From NCBI GenBank assembly GCA_028687585.1, contig JAQTZV010000015.1:1-64000 (forward strand): a DNA stretch of 64,000 nt. The letters are read 5' to 3'. The position numbers were made by a program, and so were the translations under genes. This stretch comes from Desulfuromonadaceae bacterium. Lineage in GTDB: Bacteria; Desulfobacterota; Desulfuromonadia; Geobacterales; Pseudopelobacteraceae. Below are positions 33,337-59,589 of this stretch, piece after piece. Positions within the stretch are counted from its first letter, which is position 1. Each line of letters opens with the position of its first letter. Under the pieces are notes generated by a model that did no database searches, was not told the origin of the DNA, and worked only from the letters and a program-made list of their open reading frames with translations.

Positions 33337-33602
33337 ATGTGGACCGATGCCAATCATGTCATTAATTAAAATATGCAATCTGATGGTACGACATTTTCAT
33401 CAGAGGGAACTGCAGTTTTCCGTACATGCAGACAAAACAAAAGGCCCTGGATTTGTCGGAGTGTAACTCCTATTGCCAGAGCCTCAGGATAGAAATGCGT
33501 ACAGATTCCATGCCGCTTATATACGCCTTATTCGGCTATGCTGTCAATGTATCAGCATCAGCGCAGCAGTTACAAACAGGGGCAGGTCAAGAGCTGATTT
33601 TT

Positions 33603-34592
33603 TTAGATTTGTACCACAATTTTGCCTTTTTGCCGGTTGGATTCCATGTACCTGTGGGCTTCAACAATACTTTCTAAAGGAAATACTCGGTCGATAATCG
33701 GCTTCAATACCCCATTCTCAAGTCCGTTGTAGATAAATTGTTTGCCACGGGCAAGACTCTCTGCATTTTTGGCAATCTCAAACAGGGTGTACCCTCGCAC
33801 AGTCAAGCCCTTGGCCAACGCTGCAAACAGGGGAAATATGGTCGGTGCCGACGACAATGCACCATACTCAAAGATTGTTGCACCGGGAGCTACTGCACCG
33901 GCGAGCTCTCCCAACATTGCTCCTGCAATAGAGTCAAATGCCATTTCAGCACCTTTTCCTGATGTAATGGCCATTACGCTTTCAACCAGGTCCTGTTCGT
34001 CAGTCGCTATAACGTGATCCGCCCCGGCCTCCATGAGAAAGGATTTCTTGTCGACGCCGCGGGTAATGGCAATGGCGGTAGCTCCGACTGACTTTGCGAT
34101 TTGGATTGCGGCTAATCCGACGCTGCTACTCGCCGCAGTGATCAATACAGTGTCATCTTTCTGCAATCTTCCGAATTCGATAAGCGCCCCGAATGCGGTC
34201 AGATACTGCATCCAGATCGCGGCCCCTTCAACCGGGGATAGTCTCTCGGGATAATGGGCTGCAGCATAGGCTGGCACAACGGCGCTTTCTCCGTAGACGC
34301 CATAGGTACCAATTGAAAATGAAGGAATGGTGCTTACCCGGTCGCCGATTTTAACGCCGACAGTACCAGGACCGATTGCATCTACAACCCCCGCAGCTTC
34401 ATAGCCGAGTCGAGATGGGAATGTCGGATTTTCCAGATATTGCCCCTGCCGGAACATTACTTCTGCTCGATTCAGGCCTATCGCTTCAACTTTGAGACGA
34501 ACCTCGCCCACACCCGGCTCCATAAGTGGTGACTCTTCGATTTTGAGTACTTCGGGTCCACCTGTTTCATAAAAACGGACTATTTTTGGCAT
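33603..34592 (-). CDS. quinone oxidoreductase-like MDR dehydrogenase
   Basis: This 329-residue NADPH:quinone reductase/zeta-crystallin-like protein has VRFYETGGPEVLKIEE at the start, GLNRAEVMFRQG, LGYEAAGVVDAIGPG, and a Rossmann motif in ITAASSSVGLAAIQIAKSVGA. Structural and catalytic zinc ligands typical of alcohol dehydrogenases are absent. The usual role is NADPH-dependent reduction of quinones or enones. It is divergent from the glycerate kinase gene. Confidence 0.88.
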   Translation of the reverse strand: MPKIVRFYETGGPEVLKIEESPLMEPGVGEVRLKVEAIGLNRAEVMFRQGQYLENPTFPSRLGYEAAGVVDAIGPGTVGVKIGDRVSTIPSFSIGTYGVYGESAVVPAYAAAHYPERLSPVEGAAIWMQYLTAFGALIEFGRLQKDDTVLITAASSSVGLAAIQIAKSVGATAIAITRGVDKKSFLMEAGADHVIATDEQDLVESVMAITSGKGAEMAFDSIAGAMLGELAGAVAPGATIFEYGALSSAPTIFPLFAALAKGLTVRGYTLFEIAKNAESLARGKQFIYNGLENGVLKPIIDRVFPLESIVEAHRYMESNRQKGKIVVQI

Positions 34593-34910
34593 CGCTATTC
34601 TCCCTCTTCTTAAGATTTAATTACGCTTGCAACCTCATTCAACGACCGTTGTTCATTATATACCCTCTTGGTAAAGTAATCATCCCCAATAAAAGACGCG
34701 GAACGGCTGGTTCATGATTAACGTGGCGACTCTTTCTGATCAGAGAAAATAGAAAGCCCCTTGACGGAAAGCAGCATCGAGGCAGACAATGAGAAAAGTG
34801 TGATATTATGACAATCAAAACGGCCTCAAAGATGCCGATCATTGCAGTTTGGTAACGTGCCATAAAAAAATGCTCTCTATAAATAAAACGGTAATCGAAA
34901 GGTTGTTCGC
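34593..34910. other. divergent promoter region between quinone reductase and glycerate kinase
   Basis: This 318-base spacer between divergent genes has no supported gene. It should contain two promoters, but no confident -35/-10 pair was recognised. The SD for the glycerate kinase (GAAAGG) is near its right end. Confidence 0.35.
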
Positions 34911-36044
34911 ATGCGGATAGTCATTGCTCCCGATTCATTCAAAGAAAGCTTGACCGCTCTAGAAGTGGCAACAGAGATCGAAGCCGGCTTTCGCGAGATA
35001 TTCCCGGATGCGGATTACTTCAAACTGCCCATGGCTGATGGTGGCGAAGGTACCGTTGCAGCAATGGTTGACGCCACCGGAGGCATACGCGTAGAGGTGG
35101 ATGTGACAGGTCCTCTGGGTGACCCGGTTACCGCTTTCTATGGTCTGACCGGTGATGGTAAAACAGCGGTTATCGAAATGGCTGCTGCCAGCGGCCTTGC
35201 CTTGGTCGCCACCCATCTTCGCAATCCATGGGAAACAACTTCCTATGGTACCGGAGAGTTGGTAAGGGCAGCGCTCGATACAGGTGTCAACCACCTCATC
35301 ATCGGTATCGGCGGTAGTGCGACCAACGACGGGGGGGCTGGGATGCTTCAGGCTCTTGGGGTAAAACTACAGGATCTTAACGGATGTGAGATCGGATTTG
35401 GCGGCGGTGAGCTGACGAATCTGGAGCACATTGATATCAGTGGTATGGACCCGCGTCTGAGATTGTGCCGGATTGAAGCAGCCTGCGATGTTAACAATCC
35501 GTTAACCGGCCCGAAAGGGGCTAGTGCGATCTTCGGGCCGCAGAAAGGCGCTACGCCGGAGATGGTGGCAGCCCTGGACGCAAATCTTATCCGCTATGCC
35601 AGCATAATTCATCGGGACCTTGGTGTGCAGGTGGAGTCAGTACCGGGCGCGGGGGCAGCAGGTGGTATGGGCGCTGCCTTACTTGCATTCTTGGGGGCAC
35701 AGTTACGACCCGGTATCGAAATCATCATGGAAGCCGTCGGGTTTGAGGCTATCGTGAAGCATGCAGATCTGGTGATTACCGGAGAGGGCCGCATTGACAG
35801 CCAGACCATACATGGCAAAACGCCGATTGGCGTGGCACGCATGGCCAAACGGTATGGAAAACCGGTCATCGGCATTGCCGGCTGCCTGGCAAGCGATGCA
35901 GCCGTGGTTCATGGCCACGGCTTTGACGCCGTCTTCAGTGTAATCACCCAGGTTTGTACAATGGAGGAAGCCTTAACGAATGCGGCCGTAAATGTACGAA
36001 CTGCTTCTCGAAACATTGCTGCTATTCTAAAGATGGAGGTTTGA
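34911..36044 (+). CDS. type I glycerate 2-kinase
   Basis: This 377-residue kinase phosphorylates D-glycerate with ATP. The family start IAPDSFKESLTALEVATEIEAGF and PMADGGEGTV are present, followed by GIGGSATNDGGAGMLQALG near 140, the PLTGPKGASAIFGPQKGATPEM block and LVITGEGRIDSQTIHGKTPIGVA near 290. Length and motifs fit GarK/GlxK, for which no closer assignment is made. The tiny gene after it is translated from an SD that lies inside its 3' end. Confidence 0.93.
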   Translation: MRIVIAPDSFKESLTALEVATEIEAGFREIFPDADYFKLPMADGGEGTVAAMVDATGGIRVEVDVTGPLGDPVTAFYGLTGDGKTAVIEMAAASGLALVATHLRNPWETTSYGTGELVRAALDTGVNHLIIGIGGSATNDGGAGMLQALGVKLQDLNGCEIGFGGGELTNLEHIDISGMDPRLRLCRIEAACDVNNPLTGPKGASAIFGPQKGATPEMVAALDANLIRYASIIHRDLGVQVESVPGAGAAGGMGAALLAFLGAQLRPGIEIIMEAVGFEAIVKHADLVITGEGRIDSQTIHGKTPIGVARMAKRYGKPVIGIAGCLASDAAVVHGHGFDAVFSVITQVCTMEEALTNAAVNVRTASRNIAAILKMEV

Positions 36045-36045
36045 A

Positions 36046-36189
36046 ATGGAAAATACAAATCTGATAAAACGATTCCGCGAAACGTATACAAGCCTATCGG
36101 CTAAAATGAACGATGACGAAGTTCTTCACTGGCTTGAGCATCATGATGAAGAATACGAATACCTTGTACATAAGCCTGTCAAGCAATAG
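36046..36189 (+). CDS. small acidic hypothetical protein (47 aa)
   Basis: An ORF of 47 codons starts 2 bases after glycerate kinase, with GGAGGT at ideal spacing. The protein begins MENTNLIKRFRETYTSLSAK and is rich in Asp/Glu and His in the middle. No family was recognised. Translational coupling with the kinase is likely. Confidence 0.5.
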   Translation: MENTNLIKRFRETYTSLSAKMNDDEVLHWLEHHDEEYEYLVHKPVKQ

Positions 36190-36358
36190 CAGGTTGCCAA
36201 TGTGGAATTTGAAAGTAAGCATTGATGGAATTCTGCTTGAATGCAATTCATGTGACTCATAATTTCTGATGCAGCAAAAACTTTTTATTAAACTTTTTGT
36301 TGACACTATCAAATTATATCTGTAATAAGGTGCAATATCATATTTTGAGAGCGGTTAT

Positions 36359-36508
36359 ATGCAATCAATGAACGCCACATATCCGATAAAATCATCCTTC
36401 GCACAGCCACTGTGCGGCGGTATGCACAATTTTAGCAGCGAGAGCTGGGATAATGGCATTTTTGCAGTTACAGAGTATTCCTCAAAAGAGGATTATATCG
36501 TGAGGTAA
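36359..36508 (+). CDS. small hypothetical protein (49 aa)
   Basis: A 49-codon ORF (MQSMNATYPIKSSFAQPLCG at the start) is followed about 30 bases later by a terminator, consistent with a small monocistronic gene. SD (GAGAGCGG) is weak. No family recognised. Confidence 0.4.
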   Translation: MQSMNATYPIKSSFAQPLCGGMHNFSSESWDNGIFAVTEYSSKEDYIVR

Positions 36509-36538
36509 GGATTAGCAACGCATTTTTATGTGTTCCTG

Positions 36539-36574
36539 AAACCCGACCCTCATTTGAGATGGCCGGGTTTTTTC
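36539..36574 (+). terminator. rho-independent terminator
   Basis: ACCCG pairs with CGGGT around a 20-base loop, followed by TTTTTT. It ends the small ORF at 36359-36508. Confidence 0.65.
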
Positions 36575-36703
36575 GTTGATAGAGTAACAGAGTCAAAGTA
36601 AGCCTGATAAGTAAGACAACTGAATTGTGTGTGTGTGCAGAATGCGGGAGTGGCATATCCCACCGCAAACTGAACAAATATCAAAGAAGGGGAAAACTTT
36701 CAA

Positions 36704-36847
36704 ATGATTTTAAGACCACTATTTTCACGTTCCTGGCATACAGCATTATCAGAATATGCACTCCACGCGGAGACCAGTACATCCACATTGTCACTGTATC
36801 GATTTAATGCCAGCCAATATGTAGGCGGAAGTCTAATACATAGTTAA
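36704..36847 (+). CDS. small hypothetical protein (47 aa)
   Basis: A 47-codon ORF starting MILRPLFSRSWHTALSEYAL has an SD-like AAGAAGGGG and is closed by a terminator at 36870-36908. No family recognised. Together with the two ORFs before it, this makes a run of three short genes of nearly equal size. Confidence 0.4.
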   Translation: MILRPLFSRSWHTALSEYALHAETSTSTLSLYRFNASQYVGGSLIHS

Positions 36848-36869
36848 TCATCCTGAGAAGAGTGCCGTT

Positions 36870-36908
36870 CAAACACCCTCTAGTCAGATGATTAGGGGGT
36901 GTTTTAGT
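36870..36908 (+). terminator. rho-independent terminator before the tRNA cluster
   Basis: AACACCCTCTA pairs with TAGGGGGTGTT, followed by TTTAGTTT. It insulates the tRNA group from upstream transcription. Confidence 0.75.
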
Positions 36909-36954
36909 TTATAGGTTGCTGATAAATAATACTTTTTATTTGAATACACATTTT

Positions 36955-37042
36955 GGGGCGTTGGGTGAATCGGCTAAACCGCACGGCTGTAACCCGTGAG
37001 CAGGCGAAAGCCTTCCAGGTTCGAATCCTGGGTGCCCCACCA
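36955..37042 (+). tRNA. tRNA-Tyr (GTA), element-borne
   Basis: Acceptor GGGGCGT/GTGCCCC, a divergent D-arm, anticodon stem CACGG/CCGTG with loop CTGTAAC (GTA), a long variable arm AGCAGGCGAAAGCCTT, T-arm CCAGGTTCGAATCCTGG and encoded CCA define a class II tRNA-Tyr of 88 nt. It lies inside the mobile element. Confidence 0.88.
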
Positions 37043-37050
37043 GTAAATAC

Positions 37051-37136
37051 GGAGAGTTGGCCTAACGGTAGGGAAATTGTTTGCTAAACAATCCGGGCCA
37101 AAAGCTCTGGGGGTTCAAGTCCCTCACTCTCCGCCA
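37051..37136 (+). tRNA. tRNA-Ser (GCT), element-borne
   Basis: Acceptor GGAGAGT/ACTCTCC, D-arm TGGCCTAACGGTAGGG, anticodon stem ATTGT/ACAAT with loop TTGCTAA (GCT), long variable arm, T-arm with GGTTCAAGTCC, and CCA. It is 8 bases after tRNA-Tyr, thus cotranscribed. It reads AGC and AGU codons. Confidence 0.87.
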
Positions 37137-37206
37137 TTTATGGTCATTACAAATTAATTCAGGTTGCGCGGATGCATCAAAGGAGGCCCAGAGCATGCCT
37201 CGCCTG

Positions 37207-37262
37207 GATTAGAGATGGGTTAGTCCGCTGTAGATGAGTCATCATAGCGGACTCCCCTCTCA
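37207..37262 (+). ncRNA. strong imperfect hairpin between tRNA genes
   Basis: AGTCCGCT and AGCGGACT pair exactly, with inner ATGA/TCAT around GTCA, and outer arms GAGA-GGG and CCC-TCTC extend the stem. It has no T-run, so it is not a standard terminator. It may be a processing signal of the tRNA transcript or a small structured RNA. Confidence 0.35.
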
Positions 37263-37272
37263 ATCAAATGAT

Positions 37273-37343
37273 GCGGGTGTTCCAGTGAACAGCAGGGGTT
37301 CATATCCCCAGCCAGATCGGGGCGGCACCGATACCCGCTCCCA
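37273..37343 (+). ncRNA. degenerate tRNA-Met-like structure (CAT)
   Basis: A 7-bp acceptor (GCGGGTG with TACCCGC, one G-T pair), a 4-bp anticodon stem GGGG/CCCC with loop TTCATAT (CAT) and a 5-bp T-stem ATCGG/CCGAT are followed by CCA. The D-arm lacks the GG pair and the T-loop reads GGCGGCA instead of the usual TTCRA. It is also shorter than a normal tRNA. It may be a decayed tRNA or a tRNA mimic. Confidence 0.45.
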
Positions 37344-37357
37344 GCAAGTAATATAAT

Positions 37358-37434
37358 GCAAGGGTAGCTCAAATGGTAGAGCGGTGGATTGAAAATTCAC
37401 AGGCAGTCGGTTCAATACCGACCCCCTTGCACCA
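37358..37434 (+). tRNA. tRNA-Phe (GAA), element-borne
   Basis: Acceptor GCAAGGG/CCCTTGC with CCA, D-arm GCTCAAATGGTAGAGC, anticodon stem GTGGA/TTCAC with loop TTGAAAA (GAA) and T-arm GTCGGTTCAATACCGAC are clear. One extra C lies between the T-stem and the acceptor strand, which is unusual. A T-run directly after CCA (37435-37440) may end transcription. Confidence 0.85.
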
Positions 37435-37457
37435 TTTTTTCACGTAAAGGAGATATC

Positions 37458-37487
37458 ATGTATTTTTATGATGACGCCTTTTTGTAA
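37458..37487 (+). CDS. possible 9-residue leader peptide
   Basis: A nine-codon ORF (MYFYDDAFL) follows a strong AAGGAGATATC SD and is rich in Tyr and Phe, the amino acids of two of the tRNAs just upstream. It precedes the small basic protein and RtcB. Whether it is translated is unknown. Confidence 0.3.
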   Translation: MYFYDDAFL

Positions 37488-37527
37488 GTGAGGACCCTTG
37501 AGGTTCTCCGACAAGGAGGCCAGATAA

Positions 37528-37839
37528 ATGGCTCGAAGTTTCAAGAAGCACCCGGTGCTCAAATATGCGCCGGTCCGTGGCAGAATCGGGAAGTGTTTTG
37601 CAAACAGAAAGGTGCGCAGGTACAAAGGGGACATATCCAGCGGTAACGCGTACCGGAAGTTGTACGAGACCTGGGATATTCATGACGTTGTGGATAGAAC
37701 CACCATCAATGAGTATCTTGAGCGGTGGGGTCGCTGGATTTATCGCTGTGAGAACCTTTGCAGGGACTGGGAAAATCCTTATGGGGGCACTATCCAAAAA
37801 GCAATCAACAGATGGAAAAAGACGTATTTCAGAAAGTGA
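37528..37839 (+). CDS. small basic hypothetical protein (103 aa)
   Basis: This 103-residue Arg/Lys-rich protein (start MARSFKKHPVLKYAPVRGRI, end INRWKKTYFRK) has a good AAGGAGG SD. The charge suggests nucleic-acid binding. No family was recognised. It lies between the tRNA genes and rtcB, 8 bases before the rtcB start, so the two are likely cotranslated. Confidence 0.7.
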   Translation: MARSFKKHPVLKYAPVRGRIGKCFANRKVRRYKGDISSGNAYRKLYETWDIHDVVDRTTINEYLERWGRWIYRCENLCRDWENPYGGTIQKAINRWKKTYFRK

Positions 37840-37847
37840 GGAATGGA

Positions 37848-39149
37848 ATGAATCACAAACGAGGTCGTTCCAGAAACCAGCGCGCAGACTGCAAAATGTG
37901 TAAGCCCTGGAAGGTCTCTGGTGTATCACGCACCAGCGAAGGATTCGAGAAGCATTCTGATCACGTTGCAAGGATGGCAGCCGTGGAGGAAAGCGAAAAC
38001 GCTCCCTCCACTCTCTCCATCATAAACAAGGAGAATGCTGTGACCAGTACCGACAAGTTGAAATTATTGATTCCATTGGAGGAGATCGAGCCGTCTGCCC
38101 TCACGCAGATTCACGACGTCCTCTCGCTTGATTGCCTGAAAAAACTGGTGATCATGCCGGATGTTCACACCGGATATGACTTGGTAATCGGCGGAGTTGC
38201 GCTTCTTGACGATCATATTTCACCGTCATTTGTCGGCTACGATATTGGCTGTGGCATGGTGTATATCTCAACGGGCATCAGAACGGCAGATCTGCTTCCG
38301 GACTCAAGAGCAAAAGTGGGCCTGTTTCAGAAGATCCAGAATTTAATCCCATCAGGGTTTGCAAGCCGAAAGAGTAAAGTCTTCGGCTTTCCAAAGTTTG
38401 TGTCTCCTTCTGGCAACAAGGATCTCATCACACGTGTCAACGACAAAGTAGAGAACCAGGCCGGGACTCTTGGTGGCGGCAACCATTTTATCGAGATAGG
38501 CGAAAACCGGAGTGGCGAAGTCTGCATCACTATTCACAGTGGGTCGCGCAATGTCGGACATAGCATCGGCGGTTATTACATGAAGCAAGGGCGGCTGTTC
38601 CCGTTAAATTCCGATTTGGGGCGGGCATATCAGCACGATATGAATTATGCCCTAAACTTCGCCCTCTATAATCGTGAGACTATGCTTCGAACGGTTTTGG
38701 CTCTGATGAATTTCAATGAACAGGACATCACGCGGATTATGACAGGAATGGTCAACGAAAATCACAATCATGCCGTTGTAACTACAGATGGTGTATTGCA
38801 CCGTAAAGGGGCAACTCCGGCAGATCTTGGCCAGATCGGCATCATACCGGCGAACATGCGGGATGGCGTGTATATCACACGCGGTCTCGGTAATCAGGAG
38901 TACCTGTCGTCTGCTTCTCATGGTTGTGGGCGGAGAATGGGACGGAAAGAAGCAAAGCGCAGCCTCGATCTTGAAGAGTTTAAAGGTCAAATGGAAAGGA
39001 TAGTCTCAACATCAGATAAGACCACCCTTGATGAAGCACCGGGTGCGTATAAGGACATAACCTCGGTCATCGCCTATCAGGAGGGCATAGTGATCGAAGT
39101 AATAGATTTTGTGAAGCCCCTGATCAATATCAAGGCACAGGGAGATTAA
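37848..39149 (+). CDS. rtcB: RtcB RNA-splicing ligase with Cys-motif N-terminal extension
   Basis: RtcB joins RNA 2',3'-cyclic phosphate or 3'-phosphate ends to 5'-OH ends with GTP and Mn2+, repairing cleaved tRNA. The catalytic core is complete: MPDVHTGYD, GYDIGCGM (metal Cys near residue 134), LGGGNHFIEIG, HSGSRNVG, NENHNHAVV, HRKGATPADLG and SHGCGRRMGRKEAKR, where the C-terminal guanylylated His lies. Ahead of it is an extension of about 60 residues with RSRNQRADCKMCKPWK, resembling a small Cys-x2-Cys protein fused to the ligase. The start at 37848 is chosen over an upstream frame that overlaps the basic protein gene. Confidence 0.93.
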   Translation: MNHKRGRSRNQRADCKMCKPWKVSGVSRTSEGFEKHSDHVARMAAVEESENAPSTLSIINKENAVTSTDKLKLLIPLEEIEPSALTQIHDVLSLDCLKKLVIMPDVHTGYDLVIGGVALLDDHISPSFVGYDIGCGMVYISTGIRTADLLPDSRAKVGLFQKIQNLIPSGFASRKSKVFGFPKFVSPSGNKDLITRVNDKVENQAGTLGGGNHFIEIGENRSGEVCITIHSGSRNVGHSIGGYYMKQGRLFPLNSDLGRAYQHDMNYALNFALYNRETMLRTVLALMNFNEQDITRIMTGMVNENHNHAVVTTDGVLHRKGATPADLGQIGIIPANMRDGVYITRGLGNQEYLSSASHGCGRRMGRKEAKRSLDLEEFKGQMERIVSTSDKTTLDEAPGAYKDITSVIAYQEGIVIEVIDFVKPLINIKAQGD

Positions 39150-39170
39150 CAACAGAAGGAGAAACAGGTC

Positions 39171-39689
39171 ATGACCAGCAGAACCGTCTATGTGTTCGAC
39201 ATCGGATTTCAGTTCCTGGGAACAATTGATTGGCGCCGGGCGGCATGGCTCGTTGCCTCCAACCGGGCCGAATCCCTTGTTGATTCCGATATCCCATTGC
39301 GAGGTGACTTCCTTCTCCCCAAAGTTATCCGGCTCCTGAAAGCGATCCGCAGAATGTACCGCCACGGCGTTACATGGAACCGGAGAAACCTCTTCGTACG
39401 GGATGAATACAATTGCGTCTATTGCGGCAAGAATTTCCCCGTTTCGGAACTTACGATTGACCATGTTCTGCCCAAGTCCAGAGGCGGAGTTAATTCATGG
39501 GAACAAACTGTCAGCGCCTGCAAACCATGTAACAACCGCAAAGATAACCGCACACCGCACGAAGCTGGTATGTCGTTTCACCAGCACGGATTCCGTCCAC
39601 ATGCGCCGACCGTTATGGAATTCTTTCTTACGCTGCTCCGTCAGGAAGGCCTGGATGGTGTAGTGAAAGAGTTGCTGGGTCTGCCGTAA
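39171..39689 (+). CDS. HNH endonuclease
   Basis: This 172-residue protein carries an HNH nuclease domain in its second half: CVYCGKNFPVSELTIDHVLPKSRGG, then CKPCNNRKDNRTP, with the two CxxC zinc pairs and the catalytic His in the DH pair. The N-terminal 75 residues have no recognised domain. It lies 21 bases after rtcB with AAGGAGAAACAGGTC as SD, so it belongs to the same operon. Target (DNA or RNA) is not evident. Confidence 0.85.
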   Translation: MTSRTVYVFDIGFQFLGTIDWRRAAWLVASNRAESLVDSDIPLRGDFLLPKVIRLLKAIRRMYRHGVTWNRRNLFVRDEYNCVYCGKNFPVSELTIDHVLPKSRGGVNSWEQTVSACKPCNNRKDNRTPHEAGMSFHQHGFRPHAPTVMEFFLTLLRQEGLDGVVKELLGLP

Positions 39690-39758
39690 TTGGGATTTCA
39701 AATAATGTTCACAGCACCATTAAGCATATACATTCCGTTTGTTTAGTGGAGATAACGT

Positions 39759-40121
39759 ATGACAACCAAGAGCATCAACGTCGGCATTATGTCGCGTGAG
39801 GAATTTAAGCAGCGGACTATTGCTATTGCAAAGGGAGAGTATAAGCCCGAGAAAGACGAACCAAAGGTTTGGTTTGAATCTTTGCAGTCATTTGCTCAAG
39901 TCCTGAGTGATGACAATTGAATGTTGTTACGAGTAATCGAGGGGAAAAACCCCAGGTCTCTCAGAGAATTAGGGGACTTAACGGGCCGCAACAAAAGTAA
40001 TTTGTCGAGAACATTACATACTATGGCCGGATACGGCATAATTGATCTCGTTAAACAGCACGCGAGAGAAGTTGTACCTATGGTTAAGGCAAACCGCTTT
40101 AATCTTGAGCTATGCGCATAA
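39759..40121 (+). pseudogene. HVO_A0114-type winged-helix regulator split by an in-frame TGA
   Basis: Residues 1-53 (start at 39759, MTTKSINVGIMSREEFKQ, KVWFESLQSFAQVLSDDN) and the following frame from 39921 (MLLRVIEGKNPRSLREL, TGRNKSNLSRTLHTMAGYGI) form one continuous reading frame, interrupted only by TGA at 39918-39920. Family members have an Arg codon there, so CGA to TGA is a likely mutation. The DNA-binding winged helix is in the second part, and an ATG directly follows the stop, so reinitiation could still give it. Regulators of this family often repress their own operon. Confidence 0.65.
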
Positions 40122-40143
40122 TCCACATTGAATATTGATAATG

Positions 40144-40177
40144 TAGCGGCGGCGTTATCCTAATGTCCGCCGCTATA
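40144..40177 (+). terminator. GC-rich hairpin terminator
   Basis: TAGCGGCGG pairs with CCGCCGCTA around a 16-base loop, behind the split regulator. The T-run is weak, so rho-independent action is likely but not certain. Confidence 0.5.
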
Positions 40178-40324
40178 TCACTATTTCCTGGGAAAGAAAT
40201 CACTCCCTATCGATGTCGCTTTCATTAGTATCCTCGTTGGTTGCCACCCACACTAACCCTCCATGACCGAAACAGCCGCTTCATAATCATCAAGACGATA
40301 GATACTTCTCCAAGACAACCCACA

Positions 40325-40807
40325 TCACTGGCAAGAGCAATGCTGAGCCATTACTCCCTTCACCGCCGAAAGGTGACCTGTGCTGATATCTTTCGTTGCA
40401 CACTTCGGACAACGCTCACCTGATTGACGAATGAAAGTTTCCCGCGTAACGAATTCAGGTTTGTCAAGTCCCGCAACTTGTACAGCAGCGGCTCCGGCGG
40501 CACACCCCTCTACTGCGGAACTTGCTTCAGCGGCGGTAACGGCTTCGGCAAGGATCTGCGGAGGAGTGCTGTCTCGGTAGAGGAGTTCTACGGTATAACC
40601 ATTCCCTGTCCGGGTTGCGCGGATGCCAAAGGTGGTATTCCGTAATAGTCCCATGTTCAATTCAGTACACCGGGCCTTCAAAGATTTTTCAGTTACTTTT
40701 GCCACTAAACTTCTCCTTGTCTTAAAATATTTATAAAGCGTCTCTCGTGAACATTTGTACTCCCGGGCAATTCTTACCTTTGGGGTTCTTGCGGCTATTT
40801 TATCCAT
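40325..40807 (-). CDS. HTH/zinc-motif hypothetical protein
   Basis: This 160-residue protein has an N-terminal segment of HTH type (VRIAREYKCSRETLYKYFKTR, resembling a Hin-like or TetR-like helix pair), a low-complexity Ala/Glu-rich middle and a C-terminal GERCPKCATKD with one CxxC pair followed later by HCSCQ. It may be a regulator. No close family was recognised. It points away from the replication block. Confidence 0.55.
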   Translation of the reverse strand: MDKIAARTPKVRIAREYKCSRETLYKYFKTRRSLVAKVTEKSLKARCTELNMGLLRNTTFGIRATRTGNGYTVELLYRDSTPPQILAEAVTAAEASSAVEGCAAGAAAVQVAGLDKPEFVTRETFIRQSGERCPKCATKDISTGHLSAVKGVMAQHCSCQ

Positions 40808-41160
40808 TACTTCGGCTGTCTAATGGTTTGTCAGCGATGCCTTCCTATCCCTTTCACTTTTGCAATCCAAACTCCTTCCTCCTCCTGCTCTCAAAGAATA
40901 GTTTTTTCAAATTCAGCGACCATCTCATAACAGAGAGTACAATATTCTGCCATCTGGGACTCTAAATTTCTCCAATTTACAAAATATTATTCCGACTTTG
41001 AAAAATATTTCTCGCATATCAATTCATTGGTGAACAGTTCTTAAAATTCATAACTGACCTAAAATAAACGTTATTTACATTATCATTTTCTGAAAGCCTT
41101 TGTTTATTCAATAGCTCTTAGAGGTGTCAAGATGGAAAAAGAATGGTCTTGATGTGTCAA
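40808..41160. other. AT-rich intergenic region upstream of the replication block
   Basis: No gene is supported. The region holds imperfect palindromes: AAATAAACGTTATTT near 41062-41077 and TCAAGA...TCTTGA at 41127-41152. These may be operators for the alpA-trfA unit. It is clearly more AT-rich than the flanks. Confidence 0.4.
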
Positions 41161-48245: not shown

Positions 48246-48512
48246 ATGCAATGCAGATTTCCGCAGTATTTGACCAAACCGTTTCAGGTGCTCTGGTTTG
48301 AACCAGACGATCTGGCGGTGATGACATCGAGTTTGATCGTTGCAAATCAGTTCGGAGGGTATTTATGGCTACTGCTGATCGTGCTGCCGTGGGGCTATAG
48401 CCACCTGAAGAGGCAGTATCCAAGGGGCTTTCTGAGGCACCTCCTCTATTTTATCGGCTTAGCCCCGATGAAGGGATACCCGACATTTTTTGAATCGCAT
48501 TTTCAGGAGTAA
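48246..48512 (+). CDS. traL: TraL, F-type T4SS membrane protein
   Basis: This 88-residue protein has PQYLTKPFQVLWFEPDDLAVMT, then a hydrophobic region (VANQFGGYLWLLLIVLPWG) and LYFIGLAPMKGYP, as in TraL, a small inner membrane part of the pilus-assembly complex. SD TTAGGAG. It overlaps the 5' leader of traE. Confidence 0.87.
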   Translation: MQCRFPQYLTKPFQVLWFEPDDLAVMTSSLIVANQFGGYLWLLLIVLPWGYSHLKRQYPRGFLRHLLYFIGLAPMKGYPTFFESHFQE

Positions 48513-48516
48513 CAGC

Positions 48517-49092
48517 ATGAATCTCGACATTTATCTGCAAAAAAGCTCAAACATCTTTGCCGAAAACAGGCTGCTCAAATTTTCAATTGTGGTGTTGGGC
48601 GTAGCTGTTGTCATAAATACCGCCGGATTGTTTAAAGCACTGAACAGCCAGAAAATCATTCTGGTACCGCCGGTCATCAATTCAAAGATTTCAGTAACAG
48701 GTGATAAAGCATCAGACGAGTATCTTAAAGAGTTTACCCGCTATGCCCTCGGACTGGCGCTGACCTACAACCCTTCCAATGCCCGGCCTCAATTCAGTGA
48801 GTTGCTTGCCTTGTATGACCCCTCCGAATTTCAGGCGGCCCGCAAAGAGCTCTACATATTGGCAGATAAAATTGAAAACACGCACGCAGCCAGTGCTTTT
48901 TACATCAATTCGGTTACCCATAATGCGGAAAAACGCCAACTGGAGGTGACCGGAAGCAAGCAGACGTACATGACTGGTGAAAAAGCTTCCGACGAGCAAA
49001 AGAGCTACATCATCGAATATCGATTTGAAAGCGGGAAATTCATCTTGCGCCGCTTGTATGAAAAACAGACGGGAGAACATAAGGGGGCGTAA
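48517..49092 (+). CDS. traE: TraE, F-type T4SS protein
   Basis: This 191-residue protein has a single N-terminal transmembrane segment (LLKFSIVVLGVAVVINTAGLF) and a periplasmic domain, with LVPPVINSKISVTGDKASDEYLKEF and ARPQFSELLALYDP, as in TraE (VirB5-like/VirB8-like assembly factor). SD CAGGAG fits ATG 48517. Its stop overlaps the start of traK (TAATG). Confidence 0.9.
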   Translation: MNLDIYLQKSSNIFAENRLLKFSIVVLGVAVVINTAGLFKALNSQKIILVPPVINSKISVTGDKASDEYLKEFTRYALGLALTYNPSNARPQFSELLALYDPSEFQAARKELYILADKIENTHAASAFYINSVTHNAEKRQLEVTGSKQTYMTGEKASDEQKSYIIEYRFESGKFILRRLYEKQTGEHKGA

Positions 49093-50015
49093 TGCATAGA
49101 GCAGCAATCGTGGCCGCTGTATTGATGATACCGGTACTGACATATGGAGCAACCAGCGGCAAGAATGAAAAGCATGAAACTATCGTGGCACAAACAGAAA
49201 CCGTCGGATCAGAGGGGGAATTTCCCACCGTTGTGCTGCCTGAAGTAACAACCAACGTACGCCTGTCCAGTTCCGACATGAACAGGATTGCCTGCCCGAG
49301 TGACATAAAGGAGGCGTTAACTTCGACTGAAAAAGGAATGTCGATCAAAATTACCGGTAAAGACGCCTTTGTGAAATTCAAGGTTATTAAAAAGCCGGAT
49401 GGAAAATTCACCTATTTAACGACACCTACTGAAATTTACGTTGTCTGCGGCGATGAAACATACAGCATGATCGGTTTTCCGCAGAGAGTCCCTTCGCAAA
49501 CTATCCGCCTGTCATCCGGTAAAGATAAGAAGATCAAAGAAAACCTATCAATCTATGCCGGTTTGCCCTTCGAGAAAAAGATGCTGAAAGCGATCCGGGA
49601 GGTTTACACCGAGAGCATTCCCGACTCTTACAGCGTCAGCAGGCCTGAAAAGCAGTTCAGATCCTTCAAGGAAATATACTTATCGCTCAAGCGCATTGTG
49701 GATATTGAAGGAGAAGGTCTGAGAATCAAGGAACTTGAAGCGACCTTGAAAGGCACAATTCCTTTCAAGATGAATGAGAAGATGTTCCTGCGGAGCGAAG
49801 TCGCAGAAAACCCGATAGCCATCTCTTTGGAGCAGCATGTGTTACGACCAGGTGAATCTGCTCGCGTTTTTATTGTAGAGCAACGAAGTGAATGGTCAGG
49901 CAGCCGTGGCCTTGGTGGTGATCTTCCGGTGATGACTACCGGCAGCAAAATAATCGACAAGCAAGCTGCTGTTGAATCGAAGCCGGTGGCGCAGGAGGTT
50001 GCCCATGAAAGATAG
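49092..50015 (+). CDS. traK: TraK, secretin-like outer membrane complex protein
   Basis: This 307-residue protein has a signal peptide (AAIVAAVLMIPVLTYG), then LPEVTTNVRLSSSDMNRIACPSDI and a C-terminal segment with GTIPFKMNEKMFLRSEVAENPIAISL of TraK, the VirB9-like component of the F-type core complex, which with TraB and TraV spans the envelope. Starts at TAATG overlapping traE. Confidence 0.9.
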   Translation: MHRAAIVAAVLMIPVLTYGATSGKNEKHETIVAQTETVGSEGEFPTVVLPEVTTNVRLSSSDMNRIACPSDIKEALTSTEKGMSIKITGKDAFVKFKVIKKPDGKFTYLTTPTEIYVVCGDETYSMIGFPQRVPSQTIRLSSGKDKKIKENLSIYAGLPFEKKMLKAIREVYTESIPDSYSVSRPEKQFRSFKEIYLSLKRIVDIEGEGLRIKELEATLKGTIPFKMNEKMFLRSEVAENPIAISLEQHVLRPGESARVFIVEQRSEWSGSRGLGGDLPVMTTGSKIIDKQAAVESKPVAQEVAHER

Positions 50016-51252
50016 AATCCTGGCCGTTTGGGGAGAGATGAACGGCAAACAGCGCCGCCTTGCTGCGTGGATTGGTGGCGGCTGCCTGTTTCTGATCATT
50101 TTCTTTATCGGAAGCACTGCTATGAATCGTACCACTCCGCCGCCATCTGTATCTAAAGGCGCTCATGTTCTTAATATCGAAGGCGATATGCTGGCAAAAT
50201 CGAAGGCGATGGAAAACCTGAAGGTTGTAGCCGACCGGGACAGCAAGGTTGCCGAACTCACGAAACAGCTTGATGACATTACAAAAGAGAAGAGTAGCCA
50301 GACAGCGGCCAATCAGCAGCAGAACGCCCTTCAGCAACAGCTGCCCCAGCCAAAACCGGCAGATGTCCGCGAACGCATCGCTGGCAATTCGCCAGGACGT
50401 TCTCAAAAAGGGTCATCGCCTGCCCTTCCGCCACCGCCAATGCCGCAAGGCAGCACCGCCATGTTTCCGCCGCCACCCTCTGGCCCCTCCGGGCAGGGTG
50501 TTCAAATGCCCCCGCCTGACACCGAGATAGGCGACATCGCAATTGTATCTTCTCAAGGAGTCACCAAGTCCTCGAAAGCTTCTGATGAAGATAAAAAAAA
50601 AGACCAGCGCAAGGTCTATTTGCCTCCCTCTTTTATGGAGGCGACCCTTCTCAGTGGCCTGGATGCCCCGACAACTTCGGATGCCAAGGGCAATCCGGTT
50701 CCCGTCCTCATTCGCGTTAAAACTCCAGCAGTACTCCCCAATAGCGTCAAAGCCAATCTCAAAGGCTGTTTCGTGATTGCAGACGGGAAAGGCAATCTCT
50801 CGACGGAACGGGCTGAACTGGTGCTTGTCTCTCTGTCGTGCCTGGACAGGAAAGGTCAGGCGGTTGTGGACCAGAAGATCAAGGGCTTTGTCGTTGATGA
50901 AGATGGCAAGATCGGCTTACGGGGCAAAGTTGTCTCAAAAATGGGCTCGCTGATAGCCCGCAGTATGGTCGCCGGATTTTTTGGCGGAACCGGCGATGCC
51001 ATCAAGGCTTCTGCCACAACAACGGCAATAAGCCCTCTCGGTTCTACCCAGATGATTGATGCAAAGAATATCGGCATTGCCGGTGCTGGTGCCGGGCTGT
51101 CGAATGCCTTCAAGGAAATCGAAAAGTTTTATATGGAACTGGCTCGGCAAACCATGCCGGTTATTGAGGTGGGAGCCACAAAGCAGGTGACGCTGGTTAT
51201 CAGTGAAGGGGTAAACCTGGATATTAAAAAGGTACAGGGAGGCGGCAAGTGA
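50005..51252 (+). CDS. traB: TraB, VirB10-like core protein
   Basis: This 415-residue protein has one inner membrane segment (WIGGGCLFLIIFFIGSTA), a coiled coil at about 60-110 (KVAELTKQLDDITKEKSSQ), a Pro-rich stretch (PALPPPPMPQG and PPPPSGPSGQG) and the C-terminal domain with LPPSFMEATLLSGLDAPT, LKGCFVIADGKGNLSTERAE and GKIGLRGKVVSKMG of TraB, which links the inner and outer membranes. The start at 50005 has GCAGGAGGTTGCCC. Confidence 0.93.
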   Translation: MKDRILAVWGEMNGKQRRLAAWIGGGCLFLIIFFIGSTAMNRTTPPPSVSKGAHVLNIEGDMLAKSKAMENLKVVADRDSKVAELTKQLDDITKEKSSQTAANQQQNALQQQLPQPKPADVRERIAGNSPGRSQKGSSPALPPPPMPQGSTAMFPPPPSGPSGQGVQMPPPDTEIGDIAIVSSQGVTKSSKASDEDKKKDQRKVYLPPSFMEATLLSGLDAPTTSDAKGNPVPVLIRVKTPAVLPNSVKANLKGCFVIADGKGNLSTERAELVLVSLSCLDRKGQAVVDQKIKGFVVDEDGKIGLRGKVVSKMGSLIARSMVAGFFGGTGDAIKASATTTAISPLGSTQMIDAKNIGIAGAGAGLSNAFKEIEKFYMELARQTMPVIEVGATKQVTLVISEGVNLDIKKVQGGGK

Positions 51253-51815
51253 CTAAAACTTTAAGCGCACTACAATTTATCACGGGTGTTTGCCTACTAT
51301 CTGGTTGCGCATTTATCAATCCGTACGACAGTGAATTCAGCTGCCCTGAAACCAGTAAGGGAAAATGCGTCTCGGTAAACAGTGCATATAATGATGCGAC
51401 GACTAATAGTACGTCACATTTCGGGGAGGCCAAAACTGACAGGTCAGATGAGCATAAGGAGGGGGAAAACGTACCGGTGGTTGAAGAAGTTTGCTCACAA
51501 CACTCACCGGGCGATGATTCACTATCTGGTAACAGTGCGTGCAGCAAAAAAGCAAAGAGTGCCGATCCCGCAAGAGAGTCGAAAGAAACGCAGAATTATA
51601 ATCGCTACCGCTCCGCCCTGTACGACAAGTTCGGCAATCTGCTCAAAGAACCAAAGACCCCGATCGTAGCGCCTCCTAAAACCATGCGTGTGCTTCTCCT
51701 CCCGTATACCGGTCAGGAGAACGAGTTCTATATGATGAGGTACGTGTATTTCTTCGTTGATAACGCGCGTTGGATACTTGGCGATTCCGTGACGTCAAAC
51801 GACGAGGAGGAGTAA
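51249..51815 (+). CDS. traV: TraV lipoprotein
   Basis: This 188-residue protein has a lipobox (VCLLSGC), then FINPYDSEFSCPETSKGKCV, as in TraV, a VirB7-like lipoprotein that anchors the outer ring. The C-terminal KTMRVLLLPYTGQENEFYMMRYVYFFVD is typical. It overlaps traB by 4 bases. Confidence 0.9.
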   Translation: MTKTLSALQFITGVCLLSGCAFINPYDSEFSCPETSKGKCVSVNSAYNDATTNSTSHFGEAKTDRSDEHKEGENVPVVEEVCSQHSPGDDSLSGNSACSKKAKSADPARESKETQNYNRYRSALYDKFGNLLKEPKTPIVAPPKTMRVLLLPYTGQENEFYMMRYVYFFVDNARWILGDSVTSNDEEE

Positions 51816-51819
51816 CCAG

Positions 51820-54267
51820 ATGGGTTTGTTTTCGTGGTTGTTCGGTGGAGATGGCGGCGTTACAAAAGGCGATTATTTTCGGCTTATCAGGAGAGAAAAG
51901 TTTTCAAGTTATCTGCCGTGGGCTGCATATGACAAAGCAAAGCAGGTGTATCTCAACACCGATAACACTCTGGGGATAATGTGGGAATGTTCGCCGCTTG
52001 CCTTCGCCGGCGAGAATACCATCAATACTCTGGGAGGACTTTTTCGCTTCAATTTGCCTGATGGCGCAATCATGCAATTCATACTGCTTGCGGACCCGCA
52101 TATAGATCACATTGTCAATACATATGGCGCTCTCAAGACCAGGGAGAGCAAATTAATCCGTGATGTCTCGGATAAAATGACACAGTTTTTCAAAGACGGC
52201 GTGAATGGCATGGGCTGTTTAAGCGGGATTCCGGTGCGTAACTTCCGTCTCTTTTTTACGGTGAAATTTCCGGCTAAAGATGCAGCAACCGTCAACATTA
52301 ACGAGTTACATGCGACGGTACATGAGGTGCTAAAGGGAGCGGGATTGTCTCCTGAAATAGCCGATCCGGGCGTTTTGCTGGCGTGGATGAGGAGAATGCT
52401 TAATGACAGCCCCGGTGACAACATTGATTACTACGACGAGCGCAATGTAATTCGTAAGCAGGCACTCCTCGGTACACGAGTGGAAAAGCACTTATCGTAT
52501 CTGAAGTTTGATTCAAAATACTTTCGGTGCATTACTCCCAATGCCTTCCCGAGAACAGGTGATCCAATTCAGACCAACCAGCTCTTCGGCGGCATCATGG
52601 GTATGGCCACTGACTCCGATCAGATCAGAACACCCTTCATGTATACCCTGAATATTGTTCTCCAGGATCAGAAGAACAAGCTGCACACCAAATGCAACAT
52701 CGTCCTGCAGCAGCAGGGCGTGGGAAGCCTTGCCCCGTCGCTGTCACGCAAAAAAGAGGAATATCTCTGGGCAGTAGACGAGTTGGAGCGGGGTACTAAA
52801 TTCTATCGGATCATTCCAATCATGTGGGTCTTTGGCGAGGACGAACGGCTCGTTAACGAGTCAGTGACCAGAGCCAAACGGGTATGGGAAGGGCAAGGGT
52901 ACAAGATGCAGGAAGATAAAGGGGTGCTGGTACCGCTCTTCATCTCTTCGCTTCCGTTTGGTCTCTACAATTATGGCTCAACCATCGACACGCTCGACCG
53001 CGATCACATCATGCCCGTTGAGACAATCAGCGTGACTTTGCCGGTTCAAAGTGATTTCTCCGGGATGGGAAAGCCGGTGATGCTTTTTACCGGCAGAAAA
53101 GGCCAACTGTTTGGGGTCGATATTTTCAACAAGGCGGTCAATAACCATAACGCCATGGTATGTGCCTCTTCAGGGGCCGGCAAAAGCTTCTTTGTCAACT
53201 ACCTGGTCTACAACTACTTCGCGATGCAGTCGAAAATCAGAATTATCGATATTGGTGGATCGTACAAGAAGATGACCAAACTCTTCGGAGCCCGCTACCT
53301 CGACTTCAGCGAAGAGACGGATGTCTGTCTCAATCCCTTCACCAACGTCATGGACCCCGAATACGACATTCCGATCATAGCGCCTATCGTGGCGCAGATG
53401 GTTTTCACCACCGGTAAATCACTGCCGAGTGATACCGAGATGACGCTGATCAAAAAAGCGGTCAGATGGGCATGGGATAAAGAAGCGAATGGGGCCTCTA
53501 TAGATACCGTGCATGAATATCTGAACAATTTTGATCAGTATTCAACTGAAAGCGGCGAAATAAAGGAAGCTGCCAGCAGGTTGGCCTTCAATATGGCTGA
53601 TTTTACCAGTGATGGTGCTTTTGGTAAGTTCTTTAACGGTGTCTGCAACCTGAATATCAATAATGACGAATTCGTCGTGCTGGAGCTTGAACACCTGAAA
53701 GCGAGGAAGGATCTGTTCCGGGTAGTTACGCTTCAGGTTATCAACGCCGTCACTCAGGATCTCTATCTCTCCGACAAAGCGGATCAGCGACTGATCGTGT
53801 TTGATGAAGCATGGCAGTTTCTTGGTGAGAGCTCGATCCTGAAAGAGGTTATTGAAGAAGGTTATCGCCGGGCCCGAAAATATGGGGGGAGTTTCACTAT
53901 CATCACCCAGTCTGTTCTCGACATGAAGCTGTTTGGTGGTGTCGGTGATGTCATCAGAAACAACTCCGCCTTCAAGTTCTATCTTGAGTCGGCAGATTTT
54001 GAAAAGGCGTTGAGCGAGAAGCTCCTCGACTATGACGAGTTCAGCATGAAGATCCTCAAGTCCACCAAGAGCAACAAACCAAATTATTCTGAAATATTCA
54101 TGGATACCCCATTCAGTACCGGTGTCGGACGTCTGGCGGTTGATCCCTTTTCCTATTACGTATTTACGTCAGACGCGAAAGAAATCGCCGAGATTGAAGC
54201 AATGGTTGACAGTGGGGTGAGTTATGAAGATGCCATCGGCAAAATGGTCAAAAAGTACCGCAGTTAG
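51820..54267 (+). CDS. traC: TraC, VirB4-like pilus-assembly ATPase
   Basis: This 815-residue cytoplasmic ATPase powers pilus assembly and substrate transfer. It has the Walker A CASSGAGKSFFVN near residue 448 and Walker B RLIVFDEAWQFLGESS near 657, preceded by the N-terminal TraC domain (FSSYLPWAAYDKAKQVYLNT). The C-terminal ITQSVLDMKLFGG and RNNSAFKFYLES motifs are typical. Full length and intact. Confidence 0.96.
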   Translation: MGLFSWLFGGDGGVTKGDYFRLIRREKFSSYLPWAAYDKAKQVYLNTDNTLGIMWECSPLAFAGENTINTLGGLFRFNLPDGAIMQFILLADPHIDHIVNTYGALKTRESKLIRDVSDKMTQFFKDGVNGMGCLSGIPVRNFRLFFTVKFPAKDAATVNINELHATVHEVLKGAGLSPEIADPGVLLAWMRRMLNDSPGDNIDYYDERNVIRKQALLGTRVEKHLSYLKFDSKYFRCITPNAFPRTGDPIQTNQLFGGIMGMATDSDQIRTPFMYTLNIVLQDQKNKLHTKCNIVLQQQGVGSLAPSLSRKKEEYLWAVDELERGTKFYRIIPIMWVFGEDERLVNESVTRAKRVWEGQGYKMQEDKGVLVPLFISSLPFGLYNYGSTIDTLDRDHIMPVETISVTLPVQSDFSGMGKPVMLFTGRKGQLFGVDIFNKAVNNHNAMVCASSGAGKSFFVNYLVYNYFAMQSKIRIIDIGGSYKKMTKLFGARYLDFSEETDVCLNPFTNVMDPEYDIPIIAPIVAQMVFTTGKSLPSDTEMTLIKKAVRWAWDKEANGASIDTVHEYLNNFDQYSTESGEIKEAASRLAFNMADFTSDGAFGKFFNGVCNLNINNDEFVVLELEHLKARKDLFRVVTLQVINAVTQDLYLSDKADQRLIVFDEAWQFLGESSILKEVIEEGYRRARKYGGSFTIITQSVLDMKLFGGVGDVIRNNSAFKFYLESADFEKALSEKLLDYDEFSMKILKSTKSNKPNYSEIFMDTPFSTGVGRLAVDPFSYYVFTSDAKEIAEIEAMVDSGVSYEDAIGKMVKKYRS

Positions 54268-56224: not shown

Positions 56225-56235
56225 AGAGGTGGTAA

Positions 56236-59200: not shown

Positions 59201-59589
59201 GTGATCAGGGGGATATCCAGACAGGTATGCAGGAAAAGGCGAAGGATTGCCATTTCGTGGGAGACTATTGCCAGAAAAGGTACCGTTTAATTGGCTGTGT
59301 CCAAAAGGCGAAGGGGTATTGCTGCTTTAACTCGAAAATGGCGAGGATTATCCATGAACAGGGCAGGCCGCAATTGAATGCTTTTAAACCAAATGGGGAT
59401 TGGGGGACACCAGCTTCTCCCAACTGTCGCGGCTTTACCCCTGATGAGTTTCAGGCGCTTGATTTTTCAAGGATCGATCTTTCGGAATACTTTAGCGATA
59501 TCCAAAAGGATCTGACCAATAAAATACAAGGTGCCCAGCAAACGATTACCAACAGTATCAATACGAAATTCCAGAAGGTCACACAGTGA
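56236..59589 (+). CDS. traN: TraN, mating-pair stabilisation protein
   Basis: This 1117-residue secreted protein has a signal peptide, an N-terminal domain, and then about 12 tandem cysteine modules of the type C-x-G-x-Y-x(n)-C-x5-C (for example YNPSYNLCIQP and TYNATTNKCDA), in residues 230-800. The C-terminal TraN region follows: CHFVGDYCQKRYRLIGCVQK, YCCFNSKMARIIHEQGRPQL, SPNCRGFTPDEFQALDFSRI. TraN binds recipient outer membrane proteins, so the repeat region may determine host choice. The DsbC gene in this operon is needed to fold such Cys. Confidence 0.92.
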   Translation: MFRFMYAVLYSLVLLSVTGMPTTVLAVSCNDLIPGTTHRYADALVFFTGHNGKTYALAKSAATGSTALPDGYFAFSADISQEYKVAGTDIGSLKQMVALGKYGAAKPVTIDSTETQDFIIKRFGTYMGAATSGQSTYIDAWKEFGTGVAFTTLSGTALTFDALTSGGKSAYSGQAPQAVVMGSDGVWISGQDGVRTSQIVEFPGILDCALTPIDPNAITLPPQPPSPPTDPSAFSTIICGQDLNGNGYAADPGEVANCIQTVQGQFCPIASTKCVETYNAAVCPGGSMLEPTRDMCQAAATTVCGNGYAWDSTIDKCTKTVVCPENGTLNPITDRCEKLVQNDCLPGYSYDANQTSPTYDRCVKSVACADGGSFVAAKDRCEKAWMPTCDTANGYIYNAQAGVCQRTPTCTYGSYNPSYNLCIQPIVTSCPSGYNYSTSRSRCEKSPECPSGTTYNATTNKCDAITNATTQQVLACSPTSFLCLPGSSSCCNINISCPNGAQGQVAVDAQYCCLGSDSATFQSPAELLTRKELTNTGYALSALQCDSAGSCSYYFMDRYCGDGSPASAWSLAGNFTMASMQSVCSPGQTLVNGNQCLVATNPTCAGGSFDPGLDVCWTSYSPTCSQGTYDSATGLCTLAPSCPGGTLNSSTDLCEATISRDCGIYSFDLSANICFSAPVCANGVYDPNLNVCLSSISRSCGSYSWSQSDFKCLLGVTCPQDPVFSLKATTTFSISLDKCVSDVQHDCPAGTTYTPLPIGMCEAIPTCSGSGVYDPLKDNCFGGFNTCPLGNQFTCMEYQGVMQCSANLCINPAAPGAVETTTLDESMLKDDARDTDGNCLGQLYIFNGKASRCRPPGLTVGMINNCCESDEVMTEDTGNTISTTVSAIQTAYEIGQVAYYSSMVASGAATLTPLVGTTSVGIVTATGGTTLVSGSVATGVSAAAASGTSGAAAVTSGLEAYAGALFNPATIVIAVVVLVVMKVLMGSGCDQGDIQTGMQEKAKDCHFVGDYCQKRYRLIGCVQKAKGYCCFNSKMARIIHEQGRPQLNAFKPNGDWGTPASPNCRGFTPDEFQALDFSRIDLSEYFSDIQKDLTNKIQGAQQTITNSINTKFQKVTQ

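Follow-up and report, generated by a model that had tools for sequence, protein, structure and literature searches.

A compact, probably mobile cassette of foreign tRNAs, a tRNA-like structured RNA, RtcB and an HNH nuclease in a Desulfuromonadaceae bacterium and its relatives

The tRNA array units of Mycobacterium plasmids, chromosomes and phages carry redundant foreign tRNAs and an embedded HNH gene on mobile DNA, and an anti-defence role was proposed for them (PMC5966550, PMC12803027). Jumbo-phage RNA repair sets (PMC7824862; Microbacterium phage Pumpernickel, Tunturiibacter phage Tunturi_5) hold tRNAs, RtcB and HNH in one stretch, a tRNA cluster of Acidithiobacillus ferrooxidans was reported on an integrative conjugative element (PMC5468388), and the tRNAs of the Anabaena delta plasmid (trn operon) were described as sharing a repressor with rtcB and an HNH gene (PMC10272220). 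In phage T6, the SegB endonuclease gene lies beside tRNA genes and alters tRNA dosage (PMC13096335), and the Bacillus cereus pseudo-tRNA tRNA-Other was described as a tRNA-like part of a longer RNA located at a genomic island (PMC3399842). Previous papers already describe HNH-bearing arrays of plasmids and phages and a conjugative element with an array, and they put forward the anti-defence idea for phages and, as a proposal, for the arrays of mycobacteria. Here, we analyzed a 64,000-nucleotide stretch of a Desulfuromonadaceae genome (contig JAQTZV010000015.1, assembly GCA_028687585.1; hereafter, the window), in which tRNA-Tyr, tRNA-Ser(GCU), a structured RNA that we named X, tRNA-Phe, a basic protein (p103), RtcB, and an HNH nuclease follow one another on the + strand (36955-39689; Table 1). 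Our preferred interpretation, with a probability of about 0.55, is that they form a compact mobile cassette of the tRNA-array type that also encodes RNA repair, made of foreign redundant tRNAs, RtcB, and an array-type HNH. It starts from direct observations, namely the gene content, the foreign tRNAs, an RtcB and an HNH related to those of mobile elements, the occurrence in two chromosomal settings, and tRNA sets that differ among close relatives.

The cassette differs from each of these systems. It falls outside the published definition of a tRNA array unit (PMC5966550) because it has too few tRNAs: at least 20 tRNA genes are asked for, and the window has 3 and its relatives at most 5, while the density of at least 2 tRNAs per kb is reached (3 in ~0.48 kb). 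The Mycobacterium units have no X, and no hit for RtcB was obtained in PMC5966550 and PMC12803027. The jumbo-phage sets lie in phage genomes, with long arrays, a different gene order, and no X found by the tools used. The A. ferrooxidans array is large, whereas the Anabaena operon has 26 tRNAs, an rtcB gene apart on the chromosome, and a stress role. SegB acts through amplification, whereas the cassette shows losses only. X may, like tRNA-Other, be part of a longer RNA, but the abstract on tRNA-Other mentions neither a tRNA array nor RtcB. X is the new part of the cassette, and neither was described in the titles and abstract starts of the listed open-licence PMC papers on RtcB with HNH, tRNA arrays or repair, or on initiator-like or pseudo-tRNAs. 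The cassette would bring RNA repair and tRNA replacement together within ~3 kb, outside phages and in closely related genomes that differ by single tRNA genes. If our interpretation is correct, the reason why mobile elements carry tRNAs becomes testable, as the five natural variants, whose tRNA sets are known, can be set against tRNA-cutting defences.

Table 1. Features of the cassette and its surroundings in the window (coordinates in nucleotides).
Feature	Position	Strand	Details
Terminator-like hairpin, 5' of array	36871-36904	+	15 pairs; L004 and L005 show one too
tRNA-Tyr(gta)	36955-37042	+	ARAGORN; Rfam tRNA model 49.8 bits; 52% identity to host Tyr tRNA
tRNA-Ser(gct)	37051-37136	+	ARAGORN; Rfam tRNA model 51.0 bits; 58% identity to host counterpart
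X, structured RNA	37155-37343	+	Hairpin domains 37155-37211 and 37212-37262, then 3' cloverleaf
Initiator-tRNA-like cloverleaf of X	37272-37343	+	CAU loop; CCA end
tRNA-Phe(gaa)	37358-37434	+	ARAGORN; Rfam tRNA model 58.4 bits; 71% identity to host counterpart
p103, basic 103-aa protein	37528-37839	+	ORF (open reading frame)
RtcB RNA ligase (predicted)	37848-39149	+	PF01139, E 9e-74; core 38040-39149 (369 aa), 64-residue basic extension in frame before core
HNH nuclease, 172 aa, tRNA-array kind	39171-39689	+	PF14279, PF01844
Block common to window and G017, indels included	about 33360-40849	.	Another chromosomal place in G017
F-type conjugation genes TraE to TrbC	48490-62620	+	Neighbours in 2/5 cassette genomes

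ARAGORN, Rfam, and Pfam matches confirmed the row of genes that the initial annotation had read from the sequence. X DNA was detected in 5 of 76 family genomes, all within one genus (5 of 39), namely the window's genome (G000), G017, G020, G038, and G046. The block is not restricted to a single genome; such a restriction was what the initial annotation had named as contrary to its proposal.

At least 45 tRNA matches were found in the window's genome (150 of 193 candidates were scored), and host Tyr(gta), Ser(gct), Phe(gaa), Trp(cca), and Ser(tga) tRNAs are all present elsewhere in it. The identity between array and host tRNAs of the same anticodon was 52% for Tyr, 58% for Ser(gct), 71% for Phe, 53% for Trp, and 47% for Ser(tga), the array copies of the last two being taken from L005, one of four relatives (L004-L007) from Geobacteraceae, Desulfuromonadales or Deltaproteobacteria metagenome genomes. 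All five kinds of array tRNA encode CCA. Judged by these identities, the array tRNAs are foreign to the host; by their anticodons, they are redundant with its own. As for their source, one weak phage match was obtained, to part of the Tyr-Ser stretch, and plasmid records gave no match.

The array of G020 comprises Tyr, Ser(gct), X, Trp, Ser(tga), and Phe. The identical set of G038 is spread over two contigs meeting within X, G046 has this set without Tyr, the window without Trp and Ser(tga), and G017 holds X and Phe alone, the number of array tRNAs ranging from 1 to 5 per genome. X, Phe, p103, RtcB, and HNH were kept in all five cassette genomes, and each array tRNA except Phe is absent from at least one of them. 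A six-part ancestor followed by separate losses is the simplest reading of these differences, drawn from array contents rather than from a tree. The initial annotation had also suggested that the tRNAs may support codon use. Elements with unlike codon usage may gain from extra tRNAs, but codon supply for the element's genes fits poorly here, since Tyr(GTA), Ser(GCT), and Phe(GAA) are among the host's own tRNAs, so that the array duplicates their anticodons, and non-Phe tRNAs are each absent from at least one genome, down to Phe alone in G017; we regard this explanation as highly improbable.

Between tRNA-Ser and tRNA-Phe, 221 bases received no ARAGORN or Rfam assignment, and their structured part (~190 nt) was named X. 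The X region (208 nt) folds better than its shuffles (z -3.4; 1/200 shuffles equally good) and contains a compact cloverleaf with three arms, a CAU loop, and second and third loops of 7 nt. This Met-like structure of the initial annotation, although called by neither program, is beyond chance: no cloverleaf of its kind arose in 3000 dinucleotide shuffles, and when 1934 windows along the 64 kb were scanned, tRNA-Asn and X alone gave one, by a criterion that was relaxed after a first, stricter version had rejected X itself, and hence was set with X already seen. X lacks the D-loop GG, the T-loop consensus, the canonical positions 8-9, and the purine 11 : pyrimidine 24 pair, and is therefore not an ordinary tRNA.

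The closeness of X to tRNAs was scored over 31 positions of the acceptor and anticodon arms. Of the 45 tRNAs in the window and the host loci examined, the three array tRNAs included, the initiator-type tRNA-Met was closest to X (22/31; runner-up 17). When the 512 distinct tRNAs of all loci were considered, none of the 482 non-CAU tRNAs reached 22 against that tRNA-Met (top score 21), and the next-best partners of X, scoring 21, were a tRNA-Met and a tRNA-Ser(gct) from a viral contig. T at positions 1 and 72 is common to X and the tRNA-Met of a phage-type array (L095). Bacterial initiator tRNAs are recognized by a CAU anticodon, GGG:CCC at 29-31:39-41, G2:C71, C3:G70, and the lack of a 1:72 pair, and X displays all of these. 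The GGG:CCC stem was also present in 3 non-Met tRNAs among the 512, and the unpaired 1:72 is weak as a sole sign, as 129 of 512 tRNAs, sliced as done here, have no standard pair there, partly because many encode no CCA. Across 3.08 Mb of loci, the initiator-type anticodon-arm motif was limited to X and three tRNA-Met genes, and is weak by itself, with about 1.5 chance matches estimated for that length. X is a candidate tRNA-like RNA that may serve a mobile element, without the look of a working ordinary tRNA.

Identity of X with a known Rfam RNA was rejected, as no Rfam family matched. No match to X was obtained by blastn in phage and plasmid records, and a covariance model run on 90 loci and, with strict filters, on 141 genomes of the order found nothing beyond the five cassette genomes. 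Only 4 of 192 bases differ among full copies, all in one hairpin, and the copy of G038 has one change, in the first loop of the cloverleaf. Slow change was rejected as proof of selection on X, since p103 (3-6/309 changes) and the Phe-p103 spacer (1/93) are slow too.

These data also bear on whether the locus is what decay has left of a tRNA array from a phage or plasmid, retained by chance, with X as a ruined initiator-tRNA gene. Single tRNAs are absent in 3 of the 5 genomes, the tRNA-Phe of the window is one base longer than the copies of G017, G046, G020, and G038, X has no canonical D- and T-loops, and a small gene 3' of HNH is interrupted in the window, all in line with decay. However, the RtcB, HNH, and p103 frames are open and 95-99% identical in the five genomes, and X folds better than its shuffles and is kept in all five whereas most ordinary array tRNAs vary, yet X is no more conserved than its direct neighbours. 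We give decay a real, though minor, chance.

The assignment of RtcB to PF01139 was above the cut-off (249.6 bits), and its motifs DIxCG, GxGNHF, HxGSR, HRKGAT, and SS..HG.GR, which we take to be catalytic, are common to a solved RtcB-family protein. At 95-96% identity, this RtcB was found in the five cassette genomes only. In a tree of 77 rows, in which several long branches were flagged by the tool, it grouped with database proteins, one of them labelled as from a Trichlorobacter lovleyi plasmid, and with L084 and L085, two viral contigs (support 100/99), while the host RtcB fell elsewhere. The cassette RtcB is of another lineage than the host's own. Among the best 80 of 98 RtcB loci on viral contigs, 25 show a tRNA no more than 3 kb from RtcB, and tRNA density was 1.8 per 10 kb near RtcB versus 0.63 far from it.

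Anabaena plasmid tRNAs, rtcB, and an HNH gene are under one repressor, and translational stress turns on the operon (PMC10272220); moreover, models of release-factor-linked RtcB match the cassette RtcB, below the cut-off. A host translation-stress kit, supplying spare tRNAs and mending tRNA or rRNA after cleavage by toxins or during antibiotic stress, could thus be considered in place of an anti-defence function. We think it unlikely: the block is rare (5/39 genomes) and found in mobile settings, and no stress regulator was identified.

The cassette nuclease has an HNH fold (61.1 bits to PF14279), with relatives matched in 91 plasmid and 141 phage records. We inspected 20 of the 60 listed matches, mostly one per organism kind, in stretches of 12-16 kb. 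Twelve of these plasmid and phage loci lie within arrays of 8-37 tRNAs, and every tRNA up to 3 kb from HNH is on its strand; an annotated RNA ligase was present in four of the twelve (L293, L300, L306, and L307) and in none of the eight tRNA-free loci, one of which (L295) carries no annotation. By its matches, the cassette HNH is of a kind often seen in plasmid and phage tRNA arrays. It could be a selfish endonuclease riding in tRNA arrays, with the remaining genes as passengers, as 8 of the 12 array loci have no annotated RNA ligase and array HNHs were linked to tRNA diversity (PMC5966550). This would leave unexplained why RtcB, p103, and X stay with HNH in all five genomes, and we judge it very unlikely.

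For the cassette as a combination of tRNAs and RNA repair, protection against tRNA-cutting defences is plausible, although we infer every step from gene content to protection. The array tRNAs would replace host tRNAs cut by tRNA nucleases, RtcB would reseal RNAs with 2',3'-cyclic phosphate and 5'-OH ends, and HNH might promote array recombination and so alter the tRNA content. X might imitate initiator tRNA and would then most likely act as a decoy or a resistant substitute where a nuclease recognizes that tRNA. There are precedents: phage tRNA-Tyr and tRNA-Lys were reported to overcome tRNA-cutting defences (PMC11555353), replacement of cut tRNAs was proposed for phage tRNAs generally (PMC10264068), jumbo-phage RtcB was interpreted as ligating cleaved tRNAs (PMC7824862), a homing endonuclease beside the tRNA-Tyr gene of phage T6 amplifies that gene (PMC13096335), and initiator tRNA is cut by a VapC toxin (PMC4105405). 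Eleven PIN-domain matches in the window's genome are compatible with X as an anti-nuclease RNA, without arguing for it. Cuts by PIN nucleases leave ends that RtcB is not known to seal, and X and RtcB would therefore cover different breaks. We offer as speculation, with a small chance of being right, that X represents a new RNA class, an initiator-tRNA mimic without a tRNA elbow that acts in a mobile cassette as bait or stand-in against initiator-tRNA nucleases, paired with an RtcB mending another kind of RNA break.

Several points weigh against this interpretation of the cassette. The tRNA losses and the extra base in tRNA-Phe also fit decay. The anticodon loops of Phe and Trp are identical between array and host, and loop-directed nucleases might therefore cut both. 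The T6 endonuclease is a GIY-YIG enzyme and not HNH (PMC13096335), and 8 of the 20 HNH loci have no nearby tRNA. Finally, on cellular contigs (best 80 of 179 RtcB loci), a tRNA lies within 3 kb of RtcB in 12 cases, with 0.46 tRNAs per 10 kb near RtcB versus 0.48 far from it, that is, no enrichment.

The initial annotation had placed the cassette on a conjugative element. TraE, TraK, TrbI, TraV, TraC, TraN, TraW, TraU, and TrbC lie at 48-63 kb of the window, and window-type TraU was found at 99% identity or more in G000 and G046, at 37% in G020, and not in G017 and G038; incomplete assemblies may hide some. The cassette is accompanied by this F-type type IV secretion system in two of the five cassette genomes and was found without it in three, and G045 has a TraU at 99% but no cassette match above 41%. 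A firm tie to the conjugative element is not supported. The cassette is common to five genomes in at least two chromosomal settings, in line with mobility. In G017, the shared block is followed by genes best matching contig C23 of the window's genome (three of four pieces, 54.5-57.7 kb, 80-91%), and its left flank best matches C8 and C33, not C28. The block therefore occupies two chromosomal places. A tRNA-Pro gene lies 3' of the block in G017.

The cassette had also been placed between two terminators. The upstream hairpin was recovered, whereas the scan found none 3' of HNH on the + strand of the window. As the scan total (5 hairpins vs 4.7 expected) is close to chance, the upstream hairpin is backed by its length alone. 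An inverted repeat is present 3' of HNH in L006 and L007, and the window sequence differs there. In the same region, at 39759-40121, the interrupted small gene matches phrog_11214 in two adjoining pieces, and an intact copy is present in L007.

With regard to the protein frames, p103 at 95% identity or more is found in the five cassette genomes only, and weaker matches (36-46%) in G017, G036, and G045 had no tRNA nearby in the stretches fetched. Its AlphaFold2 model (mean pLDDT, the predicted confidence score, 49.9) was not used. The RtcB frame starts with ATG at 37848, and the next database relatives (84% identity or less) start at the place of codon 38040. The 64 residues encoded at 37848-38039, a basic stretch with a CxxC motif, precede the RtcB core, in the same frame, in each of the five cassette genomes and are missing from these relatives; they are either peculiar to the cassette group or part of an upstream start.

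On the viral contigs, 14 of the 80 RtcB loci have a tRNA-Pro(tgg) no more than 1.4 kb away, 5' or 3' of RtcB and on either strand, some being near copies (L098, L108-L111, L116, L118, L131, L133, L138, L142, L146, L157, and L158). Assembly breaks fall within X in G038 (C117/C142) and at the start of the RtcB core in G020 (C150/C141), where RtcB is split by the contig end and HNH is on the other contig; these may reflect cassette variants within one sample. Four TraU genes (at least 73% identical) are present in G000, on contigs C28, C1, C2, and C26, reflecting either several F-type elements or an assembly mixing more than one strain. Just right of the window on C28, past the conjugation genes, a defence island (L197:648-13970) contains an HKD/Snf2 helicase, a type IIG restriction enzyme, and a complete QatABCD set.

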